A program made the position numbers and the translations under genes. Positions 43,280 to 51,860 of a DNA stretch of 64,000 nt are shown one piece after another (position 1 is the first letter of the stretch; the number at the start of each line of letters is the position of its first letter). The DNA is from Synechococcus sp. WH 7803 (GTDB lineage Bacteria; Cyanobacteriota; Cyanobacteriia; PCC-6307; Cyanobiaceae). The stretch is taken from positions 558,001 through 622,000 of the forward strand of contig CT971583.1 of the NCBI GenBank assembly GCA_000063505.1, read 5' to 3'. A model generated the notes under the pieces. It searched no databases, had not been told where the DNA came from, and saw nothing but the letters and a program-made list of their open reading frames with translations.

Positions 43280-43406
43280 GACCGGCTCCGTTGACTGCTT
43301 TCAGCTTCCTCCTGTTCAAAGGTGAGGCCGCGCCAGGCAACGAGCGGGTTCCCACCCGGTGGATCTGCCTATCCCATGGCTACGTTTCCGGTGCGGAGAG
43401 ATCTCT

Positions 43407-44132
43407 ATGACGACCGTCGACTGGCTCGGCATCCTTCACCCCGCGTTGGCGGTGGTGATCATCTACCCCCTGATCGGGATGGTGGTGCGATTGGCGATCC
43501 AGACCCGGGCGCGACGGTTGCAGACGCTGAAGTGTCCCCCAACGGTTGGGCGTGAACACAGTGATCTGGGCCGCTGGCTGGCGGTGGGCGTGGTGGTGCT
43601 GGTGCTCGTGGCCCTCACCGTGGCGATTGCGACGGATCAACCCTTGAGGGCCTTTCAAGGCGGAGCTGCAAGGGCTGCGCAGTTGCTTCTGGTGCTTTGC
43701 GGCAGCCTGGCTGGATTGGCAGCGTTGTGGGTGTCCAAGGCTCCGGGGCTGAGGCTCGCGTTCGTGCTGATCACCTGGGCCGGGGTCCTGGGTCTGGGCG
43801 CTCAGCCTGAGGTCTGGCGTCTGTCCGACGATCCGTTTTCGCCTGCTTTCTGGCAGTCCCATTACTGGTCGGGGGTGGCTGTGGTGGGCCTGATGCTGTT
43901 TTCTCTCGGTGCCCAGCCAGAGATTCAGCGTGACCTGCGCCTGCGGCGGCTGCACGTCAGCGCCAATGTGCTGGCTGCCGTGCTGTTTGTGGTGCAGGGC
44001 ATCACCGGCAGCAGAGATCTGCTTGAAATCCCCCTGAGCTGGCAGAAGTCAACGATCTATTCCTGCAACTTCACGGCGCGCACCTGTCCGCCGCTTGCAG
44101 CCCCAACCTCGGCGCCGGCCGTCACTCCTTGA
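43407..44132 (+). CDS. DUF4079-family integral membrane protein (copy 2)
   Basis: A 241-residue membrane protein with GILHPALAVVIIYPLIGMVVRLAIQ, REHSDLGRWLAVG, SHYWSGVAVVGL and RRLHVSANVLAAV, in the same order as the gene at 9907 (HPVLIILFVYPVIG, HADHGRWATGG, HSHTWGG, RRMHVLVNG). The start at ATG 43407, preceded by GGAG, is chosen over 43359. It overlaps the convergent UrtA-like gene by 11 bp. The C-terminal 30 residues are unique to this copy. Function unknown. Confidence 0.8.
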   Translation: MTTVDWLGILHPALAVVIIYPLIGMVVRLAIQTRARRLQTLKCPPTVGREHSDLGRWLAVGVVVLVLVALTVAIATDQPLRAFQGGAARAAQLLLVLCGSLAGLAALWVSKAPGLRLAFVLITWAGVLGLGAQPEVWRLSDDPFSPAFWQSHYWSGVAVVGLMLFSLGAQPEIQRDLRLRRLHVSANVLAAVLFVVQGITGSRDLLEIPLSWQKSTIYSCNFTARTCPPLAAPTSAPAVTP

Positions 44133-45396
44133 GCGGCGCTGCCCCCCTGTGATCACAGGTCAATCCCGCTGATTCTGGTAACTCAGGGTTCCAGGGTTGG
44201 GGCTCGATCATCCCGAAATCCTTGATCACCTGGAACCGCCCTTCGGAATCGGCTCGCGCCAGGAGGGACCGTTTCTTGAAATGCAGACTCGGCATCATGT
44301 GAAGAGAGCCCTGGGGTGCCAGCACACGGCGGCCCATCAAGGCGGACCGCACAGCGTTGGTTTCTGTGCTGCCAGCAGCCTCCACCGCCTGAGCCCAGAG
44401 GTGTACCAGGCTGTACCCCGCTTCCGCCGGGTCATTGACAACGCGGTGGTAGCCGTACCGTTGCCGGAAGCGTTGCGCGAAAGCGGTGGATTCCGGTGTC
44501 TGCAGGTTCTGGAAATAACTCCAGCTTGCATAGGTACCAGCGATCTTGCGTCGTCCGATCGCAACCGCCTCTTCCTCCGACACGGACAGACTGAGCACCT
44601 TGAGGTCCGAACGCTGATTCAATCCCTGCTTTTGCAGGGCCTGGAAGAAAGCGATGTTGCTGTCGCCGTTGAGGGTATTCACCACGGCAACCGGACCTGC
44701 CTTGAGAGCAACTTGAATGTCTGCGATCAGCGGTTCAACAGCTGCACTCCCAAGCGCCAGGTAGCGCTCGTTGAGCACACGCGCTTGTGCGCGCTGCGCC
44801 TGGGCGCGGATGATGCGATTGGCTGTTCTCGGATAGACGTAATCCGAGCCGATCAGCAGCAGCCGTTCGCTGTGATTGTTCAGCAGCCAATCCAGGGCCG
44901 GTTCGGACTGCTGGTTGGGAACCGATCCTCCGTACACCACAGCAGAAGAACACTCCTGTCCCTCGTATTGCACCGGATAGAACAGAAGCCTGTTGTTGGT
45001 CTCCATCGCTGGAACCATGGCTTTGCGGCTGGTGGAGGTCCATCCACCGAAGATCGCCACCACCTTGTCTTCGTTCAGCAGTTGTTGTGCTTTGCGAGCG
45101 AACTCGGCGGGATCTGACATGCCGTCTTCTTCAATGGCCTTCACCAGCACCGCCCGGCCGTTGAGTTTGAGGCCGCCAGCGGCATTGATCTCTTCGATCG
45201 CCAGACGCTCCGCCTCGGCCACTGTGGCTTCCGAGAGCGCCATGGTGCCGGTTCGCGAGTGCAGGATGCCAACGCGAATTGTGGCGGTGTGCGGCGGCCC
45301 ACTGCGCTGCCCGCAGCTGAGCAGCAACAGTGAGCTCAGCAGGCTGATCAGGCCTGGGAGGCTTCTCCTCGTCGCAGTCGCGATGCCTTTGTTCAT
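44122..45396 (-). CDS. UrtA-like periplasmic binding lipoprotein
   Basis: A 424-residue type I periplasmic binding protein. A lipoprotein signal ends at Cys28 (LLLLSCG). The mature part resembles urea/short-amide receptors of the UrtA/AmiC-FmdD group: RVGILHSRTGTMALSEATVAE, EINAAGGLKLNG, GGWTSTSRKAMVP, FYPVQYEGQECSSAVVYGG and NQQSEPALDWLL. UrtA normally feeds a dedicated ABC permease; no urtBCDE-type genes are near. Instead its ATG overlaps the stop of a ligand-gated-channel gene by 4 bp. A tethered or free receptor that presents ligand to the channel is the simplest reading. Ligand unproven. Confidence 0.85.
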   Translation of the reverse strand: MNKGIATATRRSLPGLISLLSSLLLLSCGQRSGPPHTATIRVGILHSRTGTMALSEATVAEAERLAIEEINAAGGLKLNGRAVLVKAIEEDGMSDPAEFARKAQQLLNEDKVVAIFGGWTSTSRKAMVPAMETNNRLLFYPVQYEGQECSSAVVYGGSVPNQQSEPALDWLLNNHSERLLLIGSDYVYPRTANRIIRAQAQRAQARVLNERYLALGSAAVEPLIADIQVALKAGPVAVVNTLNGDSNIAFFQALQKQGLNQRSDLKVLSLSVSEEEAVAIGRRKIAGTYASWSYFQNLQTPESTAFAQRFRQRYGYHRVVNDPAEAGYSLVHLWAQAVEAAGSTETNAVRSALMGRRVLAPQGSLHMMPSLHFKKRSLLARADSEGRFQVIKDFGMIEPQPWNPELPESAGLTCDHRGAAPLKE

Positions 45397-46553
45397 CGTC
45401 GTCCCCAGCTGATCACCGCGGTCAGCACCAGCAGGCCCAGGGAAAGGAACTGAAAGCGGGTGTCGGCTTGATTGATCCGCCGCATGGTGCTCGCCTTCTG
45501 TTCATCCGGTGCAGCCACGTAGGCGTTGTACCCCCACGTGAACAATCCGAACAGAGCCATGGCGATCAGATAGCTCGTTGTGAAGAGATCATCAAGGAAG
45601 GTGGTGTAAGGAAGTTTCGGCAGGGAAGAGTGGTACGACTGCTGCAGAAAAATCAGGGTGAGCAGGGCCGTTGATGGAATGGCAAGGCGTACGTCGGAGA
45701 GGGTTCCCTCCACCGATGGCGCCATCAGCACGATCGAATTGATGATCATCAGGGGGATGATCCAGTTCACGATTCCTGGCCAAAGATTCGACTGGTAAAT
45801 CACTTCCAAGCGAACCTGGCTGAGCTGGGGGCGATACCAGGTGCCCAGGCTGTTGGAGCTCCGGCGCAGAAATGGTTTGAAACTGGCGCCCTGAAGCTGG
45901 TAGCCACTGAGAGAGCCCAGTTCTCCCACGAGATTGTCGTTGGAGGGGGTCGGCAACAAACGCAGGTCGGCGTATTTCTGGGAGGTCCAGAGCGGTTCAA
46001 GCTCGATGATGATCGGCACCTTCAGCACATCGAAGGGATCCCTTCGGAAGTCCACCGCATCGTCGTAGAACCGACTCGAGAAGCGGAAGAGCAGCTGACG
46101 TCGCCCCCCTGAGAGCTCGCGCACTCCTGCAGCGGATGGTTCAAAGGTGGAGTCCCACGTCTCGATGCGATTGGTCAGTGAAATCAGATCGGCGGCGTCG
46201 GTGTCGTACCGCTGAAGCAATGCCTCAACCTCGGGGAGCCATTCCAGCCAGATCTCACCATCTGCTGTGAAAGTGCGCGAGTTGAGATTGAGTTCGTAGA
46301 TCTTGTCGAGATGAATACCCGCATAAATGAACGGGTGTTTGGCGACGAGCGCATCGGAGGGCTGGACGGCCTCCAGCCCCGCGGTGCCTTCCATCTCCTC
46401 TTGCACCGCGGCAGGATGAATCGTGTCCGCATTTGGGCCGCGATCAACGAACGCGCGTGTGCCCAACAGCAGAGTGATTGCCAGAACCAAGGCAATGAGC
46501 AGAAATCCGAAGCGTCTTGAGATGGGCAGGCGCATTCGTCCACTGGCGTTCAC
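45393..46553 (-). CDS. Pentameric ligand-gated ion channel (GLIC-like Cys-loop superfamily)
   Basis: A 386-residue channel subunit. An N-terminal hydrophobic segment (about 14-33) may be a signal or anchor. The extracellular ligand domain (about 70-255) contains the Cys-loop equivalent AVDFRRDPFDVLKV, nearly the GLIC sequence, without any cysteine in the whole protein, as is usual for prokaryotic members. Then come M1 (about 258-279), pore-lining M2 (about 284-306) with LPKLPYTTF right after it, M3 (about 320-346) and M4 (about 366-383). The M2-M3 loop motif LPKxPY matches GLIC strongly. It is 27 bp downstream of nfu and overlaps the binding-protein gene. Confidence 0.85.
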   Translation of the reverse strand: MNASGRMRLPISRRFGFLLIALVLAITLLLGTRAFVDRGPNADTIHPAAVQEEMEGTAGLEAVQPSDALVAKHPFIYAGIHLDKIYELNLNSRTFTADGEIWLEWLPEVEALLQRYDTDAADLISLTNRIETWDSTFEPSAAGVRELSGGRRQLLFRFSSRFYDDAVDFRRDPFDVLKVPIIIELEPLWTSQKYADLRLLPTPSNDNLVGELGSLSGYQLQGASFKPFLRRSSNSLGTWYRPQLSQVRLEVIYQSNLWPGIVNWIIPLMIINSIVLMAPSVEGTLSDVRLAIPSTALLTLIFLQQSYHSSLPKLPYTTFLDDLFTTSYLIAMALFGLFTWGYNAYVAAPDEQKASTMRRINQADTRFQFLSLGLLVLTAVISWGRR

Positions 46554-46580: not shown

Positions 46581-46826
46581 TCAGAGCACCTGCACCACTT
46601 CGCTCACCTCGGGAATGGCCTCGCGCATTTTGCGTTCGATGCCCATCTTCAGGGTCATGGTGCTGCTGGGGCAGCTGCCGCAGGCTCCCTGGAGCCGCAC
46701 CTTCACCACCGGCCCGTCGATTTCCACCACTTCCACGTTGCCGCCGTCGGCCATCAGGAAGGGGCGCAGCTCGTCGAGCACCTTCTCCACGTTTTCGCTG
46801 GTCAGCGGCATCGTTTCGGAGCTCAT
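46581..46826 (-). CDS. nfu: NfuA/NifU C-terminal-like Fe-S scaffold
   Basis: An 81-residue NifU-like domain protein that carries [4Fe-4S] clusters for transfer to apo-proteins. The CxxC motif lies in [34 protein letters not shown] and the C-terminal [11 protein letters not shown] are standard. It is the stand-alone form common in cyanobacteria. It runs into the channel gene 27 bp later on the same strand. Confidence 0.93.
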
Positions 46827-50213: not shown

Positions 50214-51191
50214 TCAGGGTTTGATCAATAAGGGGCCCGGTGTGGCTGGGATGTTGTACTTCATCCTCAACTCCACAACGGGTTGATCGGCGATCGCCCA
50301 GAAATCAAGGTCTTGAATGAGATTGATGGAGCAAGCCAAGCCTTTTTCATAGCCAGCCATGGCGGCATCAGGAATGAACTGACCGGTTTCCGGAGGGATG
50401 ATGCTGTTGCTTGTGCTGAACGCCTTGCCGAGGTGGAAGTCGAGAATCACTTCCAGCAAAGATTCGAAGCCGAAGCCATCGGTGAACAGTCCGGCCTGAA
50501 AAGCCGCCACATTCATCTCTCCAGCGCAGTCGGTGTTGAATCCGCCAAGGATGTGGCAGCAGTCGTGATTCACCAGAAGCTCTGAAGTGCTTTTGTGCTC
50601 CCCTGGCAGAGCCCAGCCACGGTCGCGGTACCAGTGAAAGAACGTGTGGCCGAGAGTTCCTTCCGCGTACGAGTCGAGCGTGGCGTAACGGCTGGCGACG
50701 GACGCATCACCGATGGCCTGATGAACAGCTGCGATCACACCGCGAACAAAGCGAGAGGGTGTGTCAAGCCCTAAAAATTCACCCATGCTCCTGCGCCCGT
50801 AGTCGAGAAGCAAGCGTCTGAGGTGGTTGTCTCTCACCTGGTGCAGGTCTTGGAGCGTCTGGGGTGCGATGTTGAGGAATGATGCGAAATCATCCACAAC
50901 TCCCACCATGCGTGGATCCACATTCATGTCCACATAGGGAATGAGCACAAGGATCTGAATCAGCTGGTTTCGCTTGCTTTGATCGCTGATCAGCGCGGGG
51001 TAATCGGGGGGATGGCGAATCTCAAGGGTTTCGAGATCCACTGAGGAATGCAGAACATGGCGCTGAATGGCCTCCATCATCTCCAGAGTGATTGGCTCCA
51101 GAGCAAGCACGCCTCCCGCTGTTCCGACGGTCTTGATGGCTTGCAGAAAAAGGCGTGCTTCCGCGTCCGTCCAACGAAGCTGCTGAGGCAT
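50214..51191 (-). CDS. COQ4-like metal-binding protein
   Basis: A 325-residue soluble protein. Near residue 220 it has the pattern HDCCHILGGFNTDCAGE, which fits the Coq4 zinc/metal signature HDxxHx11E exactly (eleven residues between His and Glu). Coq4 helps ubiquinone synthesis and is a C1-decarboxylating hydroxylase in some organisms; cyanobacteria make plastoquinone, so the role here is unclear. An N-terminal all-helical part (about 20-130, DVDPRMVGVVDDFASFLNI) resembles TerB-like folds. ATG 51191 is preferred; the frame extends upstream to 51623 over other genes. Confidence 0.7.
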   Translation of the reverse strand: MPQQLRWTDAEARLFLQAIKTVGTAGGVLALEPITLEMMEAIQRHVLHSSVDLETLEIRHPPDYPALISDQSKRNQLIQILVLIPYVDMNVDPRMVGVVDDFASFLNIAPQTLQDLHQVRDNHLRRLLLDYGRRSMGEFLGLDTPSRFVRGVIAAVHQAIGDASVASRYATLDSYAEGTLGHTFFHWYRDRGWALPGEHKSTSELLVNHDCCHILGGFNTDCAGEMNVAAFQAGLFTDGFGFESLLEVILDFHLGKAFSTSNSIIPPETGQFIPDAAMAGYEKGLACSINLIQDLDFWAIADQPVVELRMKYNIPATPGPLLIKP

Positions 51192-51350
51192 TGATCGCGT
51201 TCCGGTGCACCGATCTAGCACCCAGGCCCGTGATAACGGTGTCGCTGCCCTGACCAGACGAACGGGTTCTTCAGAAAGTTCTCCGATGGTGGACGGTTTT
51301 TGCTCTGACCGATGAATAGCTTGAGACCAGTAAGTCTTGTGTGTCTTGGA

Positions 51351-51860
51351 ATGAAGCGCATCTGTTTCGAGCGGAGTGCCTGCTCTGCGGCCGTCGTTGC
51401 TGCAGCTCTCCTGGGCGGAGCTGCTCCCGGTTTGGCTTCGAGAGCGCCTGTTCCGGCGGCTGAAGGCACGCTGATTCATCTTGATCTGAGACAGCGGCGC
51501 ATCAGTGTGATCCGCAATGGCGAGCGCATCGGGCCTTGGCCTGTGGCCATTGGAGATCCCAAGACTCCCACTCCGACCGGTGTGTTCCAGGTTGAGAACA
51601 AGCGAGTCAATCCTCAGTACCAAAGCACCAAGTCAGGCCGCGTTCATCCGGTGACTGGACCCTCCAGTCCCTTGGGCCACCGCTGGATTGGTTTTCTTCA
51701 GCAGGGACCCAACCAGTTCGGGATTCATGGAACCCCCTGGCCCCATTGGGTGAAGATTCGAGCGGCAGTCTCCAATGGCTGCGTGCGCATGCTCAACGCT
51801 CACGTGCAAAAGCTTTATGAGCTTGTGGATGTCGGAACCCCGGTGAAGATCACCCGCTGA
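51351..51860 (+). CDS. L,D-transpeptidase with signal peptide
   Basis: An about 169-residue YkuD-domain enzyme with an N-terminal signal peptide (start ATG 51351, hydrophobic AAVVAAALLGGAAPGLASRAP). Catalytic motif: FGIHGTPWPHWVKIRAAVSNGCVRM (His and Cys in HGTP and SNGCVR); substrate strand TPTPTGVFQVENK. It would make 3-3 cross-links or cleave/attach in the periplasm. The copy at 14755 lacks a signal. It ends overlapping the marC gene. Confidence 0.9.
   Translation: MKRICFERSACSAAVVAAALLGGAAPGLASRAPVPAAEGTLIHLDLRQRRISVIRNGERIGPWPVAIGDPKTPTPTGVFQVENKRVNPQYQSTKSGRVHPVTGPSSPLGHRWIGFLQQGPNQFGIHGTPWPHWVKIRAAVSNGCVRMLNAHVQKLYELVDVGTPVKITR

Follow-up and report, generated by a model that had tools for sequence, protein, structure and literature searches.

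An unusual gene pair joining a pentameric ligand-gated ion channel (pLGIC) to a UrtA-like binding lipoprotein, considered here as a candidate urea sensor, lies in a 64,000-nucleotide stretch (the window) at positions 558001-622000 of the Synechococcus sp. WH 7803 genome (2,366,980 bases, one contig). The channel gene (45393..46553; 386 residues, GTG start) is followed by the receptor gene, which encodes a type-I periplasmic binding lipoprotein of 424 residues (44122..45396). Both genes and their features are on the minus strand, and the channel stop and receptor start share an ATGA (45393..45396), a 4-bp overlap that may couple translation of the two. The open reading frames (ORFs) bear out the placement, strand and overlap given in an initial annotation of the window, and the channel features named there (DFRRDPFD, LPKLPY and four membrane helices) are found at residues 168-175, at residues 311-316 and, in a structural model, within 257-384.

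The channel is a member of the pLGIC superfamily, as judged from a sequence match in the PDB and from its predicted fold, and its first description as a channel of this type holds. Residues 71-342 align to ELIC in a phmmer search of the PDB (E 1.5e-5). A predicted single-chain model made with an alignment of 46 channels (predicted local distance difference test 86, predicted template modelling score 0.77) displays a beta-sandwich extracellular domain followed by four helices (257-280, 286-309, 319-347 and 350-384); its secondary structure also includes an N-terminal hydrophobic helix, presumably a signal or anchor, at residues 13-37 (46443..46517). Foldseek matched the model to GLIC (E 2.4e-19) and DeCLIC (9fth, E 2.8e-18), and comparison with GLIC (3lsv; VIA) gave Z 22.9 and a root-mean-square deviation of 2.9 over 282 residues, alongside fold matches to sTeLIC (Z 22.9), GluCl (22.5), GABA-A (22.3) and ELIC (22.2). 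Profile databases proved less helpful. No match to PF02931 or PF02932 was obtained for the window channel in Pfam and NCBIfam, where the LGIC_1 model reached only E 0.2, and PF02932 was matched by five of the six channel paralogues scanned, all below cut-off. These databases were rejected as proof of channel identity, the window channel lying under their cut-offs, and in one such search the absence of matches is uninformative because the control matched nowhere.

The Pro-loop DFRRDPFD between beta6 and beta7 (46029..46052) carries its proline, P173, which together with F174 is invariant in 46/46 channels. The predicted M2 pore helix, residues 286-309 (45627..45698), contains D287 (-2'), R289 (0'), P293 (4') and L298 (9'), with prime numbers taken from the ELIC alignment and following the pLGIC convention for M2; the M2-M3 loop LPKLPY lies at 45606..45623. 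R289, P293 and L298 do not vary among the 46 channels, D287 is invariant in 18/18 paired channels (alignment A3), and position -2' is Asp or Glu in all 27 host-genus channels (alignment A1, read directly). In pLGICs, an acidic ring at the cytoplasmic mouth (-2'/-1') is tied to cation selectivity, and the acidic -2' residue suggests that this pore, too, is probably cation selective. At 4', all 46 aligned members of this channel family carry proline, which sets them apart from ELIC.

The receptor resembles UrtA, as had been proposed. It exceeds the cut-offs of Peripla_BP_5 (421.6 bits) and a second Peripla_BP_5/6 profile (230.8 bits), reaches 437.3 bits against the UrtA model TIGR03407 (cut-off 492.75), and has urea-binding proteins as its nearest solved relatives in the PDB (7s6e, E 2e-109; 8hic, E 4.6e-109). 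A check of both proteins against family profiles, suggested at the outset, thus succeeded for the receptor, which matches type-I binding profiles, but failed for the channel, which misses PF02931/PF02932. A lipobox, LLSC, at residues 25-28 (45313..45324) predicts a lipoprotein, and a lipobox-like pattern occurs in 24 of the 26 channel-linked receptors described below. The putative urea pocket spans W119 to S271 (44584..45042) and comprises W119, S121, Y140, Q143, E145, Y186, N243 and S271. According to the accessible part of a study on Prochlorococcus UrtA (PMC10392092), urea binding is lost or falls sharply upon substitution of W120, S122, Q144, Y190 or N246 and is reduced upon substitution of Y141, E146 or S274. 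These eight urea-relevant residues are identical in 26/26 channel-linked receptors and 23 UrtA of the genus, as well as in a 24th (L176; L and G labels denote our loci and genomes). Between two and four of them are changed in each of the distant homologues L285, L286 and L287. Of these, L285 bears the annotation urtA and L286 has an annotated urtB as its neighbour, so database records apply the urtA name to other pockets too. Retention of all eight residues throughout the linked receptors makes urea a likelier ligand than an amide or amino acid. The initial annotation had offered all three; the UrtA pocket favours urea, which is probably the ligand, and leaves the other two as less likely guesses.

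A variant in which the same channel and receptor unit responds to a urea-like compound instead of urea is doubtful. Its appeal lies in certain positions of the receptor: R48, A60, E61, E89, W170, A279, A324 and A335 are found in 25/25 members of the linked clade and are rare in 18 other UrtA, with R48 and E89 absent from those 18. The lack of a urease alpha match in the host, detailed below, would also suit a compound other than urea. Yet R48 and E89 recur in four Cyanobium-group rows, two of them adjoining UrtB, that carry nearly all eight of these positions, and the eight urea-relevant residues are unchanged. Phe192 to Tyr was also considered as a mark of linked receptors and rejected, as Phe occupies this position in 22/23 genus UrtA but Tyr does so in 10 of 13 further transporter-labelled rows.

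Genome surveys revealed that the pairing extends well past the host. Some channel occurs in 19 of 31 host-genus genomes, and all ten intact channels of the window type in the genus adjoin this receptor, including one (L041, G005) where the window's other neighbours were not recognised, yet the adjacency was kept. Beyond the genus, the best 80 of 118 relatives were followed up in 78 loci (two of which, L057 and L058, are repeats of genus genomes), and 16 further pairs were found among them: nine in Myxococcota or deltaproteobacterial metagenome-assembled genomes (MAGs), all receptor-first; six in gammaproteobacterial MAGs, likewise receptor-first and, in five cases, named Halieaceae or its genera; and one convergent pair in Synechococcus CS-1330. 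The total of 26 pairs in 25 genomes covers three gene arrangements and three phyla. In 10/10 channel-first pairs of the genus and 6/15 receptor-first pairs, and so in both tandem orders, a start codon is available that would create a 4-bp overlap. Of the full-length window-type channels fetched, 26/29 adjoin a receptor, and since adjacency recurs across three arrangements and three phyla, it exceeds chance; conservation of the neighbourhood, which the initial annotation had proposed surveying among picocyanobacteria, reaches far outside them. In the marine gammaproteobacterium HTCC2143, a paired-type channel is reduced to its M2-M4 end (L118:6019-6372), and its locus holds no receptor. At L036:7537-8690 and G003:C2:1032524-1032786, degenerate tandem copies of the window-type channel stand beside an intact one.

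Despite this phylogenetic breadth, the pair is rare in wider genome samples. Members of the wider channel family were detected in 34/386 genomes of a cyanobacterial phylum sample. Sets sampled from two larger groups gave a channel match in 5/369 genomes of the class of G416, strong only in the seed genome G416 itself, and in 21/377 genomes of the phylum of G411, where the eight strong matches were all known beforehand. No channel relatives were found in the plasmids or phages searched; in viral contigs, channel patterns matched 218 and 153 stretches, none of which was confirmed.

Phylogenetic analysis separates the linked receptors from those of transporters. In a tree of 50 rows of homology-picked ORFs (10 of the 23 genus UrtA plus L176; L198 trimmed at its N-terminus; L285, L286 and L287 labelled outgroup after their altered pockets were seen), 25/26 linked receptors constitute one clade with support 100/100, apart from transporter UrtA. 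The clade holds Cyanobacteria, Myxococcota (in two separate branches) and Gammaproteobacteria, and its neighbour is a group of Cyanobium UrtA. Linkage of this receptor to urtBCDE in relatives, which would have spoken against a sensor, was not seen for the 25-member clade in the genomes tested. The remaining receptor, that of CS-1330, falls inside the Cyanobium group and appears to be a separate, second recruitment of a Cyanobium-type UrtA. The channel tree recovers the genus (100/100) and gammaproteobacterial (98/99) groups, with lower support for Myxococcota (85/64), and places the Cyanobium channels, that of CS-1330 included, with the host genus, a placement that fits a replacement of the partner in Cyanobium. 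Distances in the two trees correlate with r 0.93, a value reached by 0/2000 permutations.

The urea-related gene content of pair-bearing genomes bears on whether the receptor might still serve transport. In the host, the only place over the PF13433 cut-off is the window receptor, and a search for UrtB gave no match (UrtC, D and E were not searched; UrtB controls matched in 11 of 14). No ATP-binding cassette (ABC) permease or ATPase was found among the 12 neighbouring ORFs scanned, from 39.4 to 52.5 kb of the window, in keeping with what had been noted at first. Across 23 of the 25 pair-bearing genomes (G016 and G020 left out), UrtB over cut-off was absent from 13 and present in 10; in nine of these ten a second UrtA, with a better score, lies at most about 1.4 kb from it, and in G418 the two are on separate contigs. 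Three genomes at least 99% complete (G000, the host, with G010 and G025) carry the channel-linked receptor but lack UrtA in the transporter score class. An orphan receptor serving an unlinked urea or amide ABC transporter, its adjacency to the channel being incidental, is nevertheless conceivable in that the UrtA adjoining UrtB in Cyanobium G407 and G409 falls in the sister group of the linked receptors, and the accessible part of a 2021 review suggests that orphan UrtA may use other transporters (PMC8786288). The absence of UrtB matches from the host and from 13/23 genomes, together with an adjacency kept through three gene arrangements, makes this explanation very unlikely. For the host genome, these results suggest that the urtA annotation does not denote a transporter.

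The channel might itself be the transport route. Open pLGIC pores admit small neutral solutes, and a receptor-gated pore could let urea in as a nitrogen source, a role with which the urea-type pocket of the receptor would be compatible. However, charged residues are conserved at the inner mouth of the pore, and urea uptake would be of little use to the host because urease alpha gave no match in its genome (urea carboxylase was not searched for; urease alpha controls matched in 4 of 14). We regard this route as highly improbable, slightly more so than service to an unlinked transporter.

Other members of the channel family are associated with other binding proteins. The host's second channel (L042:6607-7836) lies tail-to-tail with, and 17 bp from, another type-I binding protein (Peripla_BP_6, 172.8 bits), the two covering L042:5363-7836 at about 2.118 Mb of the genome (G000:C1), presumably between hrcA and trpB as we named these genes by eye; the tail-to-tail arrangement is found in all six genus copies. 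A third channel paralogue and a third binding protein are divergently arranged in seven genus cases, one of them cut by a contig end (for example L035:12762-15204 and L054:4753-7198), and this pair recurs outside the genus in Cyanobium/Synechococcus (also at L122-L125, L127, L129, L131, L133 and L134). Altogether, 23 of the 27 intact genus channels adjoin a type-I binding protein. Conversely, the 52 genus places over the PF13458 cut-off divide into 23 beside a channel, 25 transporter-class UrtA (one cut by a contig end) and four that are neither. Type-I binding-protein matches away from any channel include G003:C2:91396-92370 (223.9 bits) and, as one of those four, a weak match in the host at G000:C1:648454-649149 (32.8 bits). 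Since two further kinds of type-I binding protein accompany paralogous channels in the genus, the window pair may belong to an exchangeable kit.

Seven channel positions distinguish the paired channels from their relatives. D172, K193, Y194, S216, W239, P242 and V281 are present in 26/26 paired channels and 0/40 unpaired ones, the latter being relatives found in other Synechococcaceae and Cyanobium, in Methylococcaceae and in deltaproteobacterial MAGs, at loci where no type-I binding protein was detected at E 1e-4. These positions are candidates for the receptor interface. No alternative partner stood out among the recurring neighbours of the unpaired channels, which we take, naming them by eye, to be housekeeping genes. 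Two of the seven, W239 and P242, fall in the loop C region, between model strands 218-231 and 243-255, and would suit a mechanism in which the receptor concentrates a small molecule at the membrane and that molecule gates the channel through its own extracellular site. Such a hand-off was proposed for bacterial forms in the accessible part of Tasneem et al. (PMC549065). Against it stands the tight hold that such binding proteins have on their ligands, with a Kd of 141 nM given for UrtA in the part of PMC10392092 available, and as a separate explanation it is unlikely.

Taken together, the two proteins very probably work together, and we assign a probability of roughly 60% to the reading that channel and receptor form one signalling unit that senses urea, ligand hand-off included as a variant. 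The pLGIC fold, the intact urea pocket, the 4-bp overlap, the cross-phylum pairing and the lack of UrtB and urease alpha matches in the host all point this way. In the proposed mechanism, the lipid-anchored receptor would bind urea in the periplasm and close around it; the closed, urea-loaded receptor would contact the extracellular domain of the channel pentamer; and this contact would alter the opening of the probably cation-selective pore, so that external urea would be converted to an ion flux or a change in membrane potential. In the variant, the receptor would pass urea to the channel's own site. The most specific version, a two-part urea-gated channel in which a UrtA turned receptor opens a pLGIC as part of an exchangeable kit, with a second recruitment in CS-1330, is held tentatively, at somewhat under even odds.

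Several observations weigh against a dedicated urea-sensing unit. Two of the eight linked receptors scanned exceed the TIGR03407 cut-off (503.9 and 557.6 bits). Four genus channels (L044, L049, L051 and L052) lack a binding protein beside them. No receptor lies at the loci of three full-length window-type channels, L059-L061, and tblastn detected no decayed one there, yet these channels carry all seven paired-channel positions, so this signature tracks the clade and not adjacency. Similarly, since Cyanobium UrtA beside UrtB share most of the clade positions of the receptor, those positions alone mark no channel partner, and fixed ones such as R48 may leave room for a ligand other than urea. 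The distance correlation between the trees is inflated by shared ancestry, and missing UrtB in many pair-bearing genomes is weak evidence because these are drafts of unstated completeness. Cyanobium sp. FACHB-13342 encodes a paired-type channel (L061) and, on another contig, a UrtA (L289:9164-10720); no UrtB lies beside this UrtA and none over cut-off was found in the genome.

In the immediate surroundings of the pair, an nfu gene (46581..46826, minus strand) for a NifU-like Fe-S scaffold lies 27 bp upstream of the channel on the same strand, as the initial annotation had recorded. It was not found next to the pair in L041, is roughly 4 kb distant in L035 and not seen in L036, where the contig ends, and is probably unrelated in function. 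Downstream, a DUF4079 gene on the plus strand (43359..44132) is convergent with the receptor and overlaps its 3' end by 11 bp. One of the scanned neighbours, a 469-residue ORF at 50214-51623 (minus strand), has no Pfam match at 1e-5, and a promoter and terminator scan yielded nothing above shuffled sequences.

We know of no natural ligand or role assigned to most bacterial pLGICs, and the pair described here names both a candidate ligand and a partner for one of them. It likewise supplies a candidate partner for orphan urtA genes and cautions against reading urea uptake from a UrtA-like gene in a picocyanobacterium. If the proposal is correct, bacteria would sense urea by a channel of the neurotransmitter-receptor type with a binding protein as a detachable receptor. 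This would parallel the binding-protein domains fused to animal receptors that are discussed in the accessible part of Tasneem et al. (PMC549065).

Compared with structurally characterized pLGICs, the window channel shares with GLIC, ELIC and sTeLIC the fold from the extracellular domain to M4 (Z 22.2-22.9), the pro-loop and an LPxLPY loop. It differs in its low identity to them (18-19%), in lying under the Pfam and NCBIfam cut-offs, in being encoded with a separate binding protein and, relative to ELIC, which has serine there, in the invariant proline at M2 4'. DeCLIC (9fth) likewise adds a periplasmic domain to the pLGIC core, but the added domain is a fused N-terminal one, regulation is by calcium, and no separate binding protein is described in the part of the source available. 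Bacterial channels fused to type-I periplasmic binding proteins, or in operons with genes for type-II periplasmic binding proteins or Cache proteins, were reported in 2004 with a proposed chemosensing function (Tasneem et al. 2004, PMC549065, accessible portion). Like these bacterial acetylcholine receptor-type ligand-gated ion channels, the window channel is associated with a periplasmic small-molecule-binding protein. The WH 7803 partner is instead a separately encoded UrtA-type (type-I) lipoprotein bearing a urea pocket, and the pair is ATGA-coupled and conserved over three phyla; neither a UrtA-type partner nor this pair is mentioned in the accessible portion of that article. Channel and binding-protein operons have been known since 2004, and the UrtA-type partner is the new element. 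Another study (PMC4795631) includes a Synechococcus sequence in its alignment and one isolated in its tree, and the terms 'operon', 'periplasmic' and 'neighbo' do not occur in its accessible text. No prior description of the channel and UrtA-type pair was found in the accessible parts of the open literature searched, a scope that excludes subscription papers and preprints. On the receptor side, UrtA of UrtABCDE systems, for example that of Prochlorococcus MIT9313, is represented by the match to the urea-transporter binding protein 8hic and has all eight urea-relevant residues identical to those of the window receptor, which differs from it in lying under the UrtA cut-off, in belonging to its own clade and in having no UrtB match in its genome. 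In the available part of the 2021 review, a gene annotated urtA is ascribed to every sequenced picocyanobacterium apart from some Prochlorococcus strains, and the role and partner of the orphan urtA genes of some marine Synechococcus are called unresolved (PMC8786288). The window receptor is, like these, a UrtA-type gene without ABC subunits; whereas orphan urtA genes such as those of clade IIIa are placed there near phage-associated genes, it stands beside a pLGIC.

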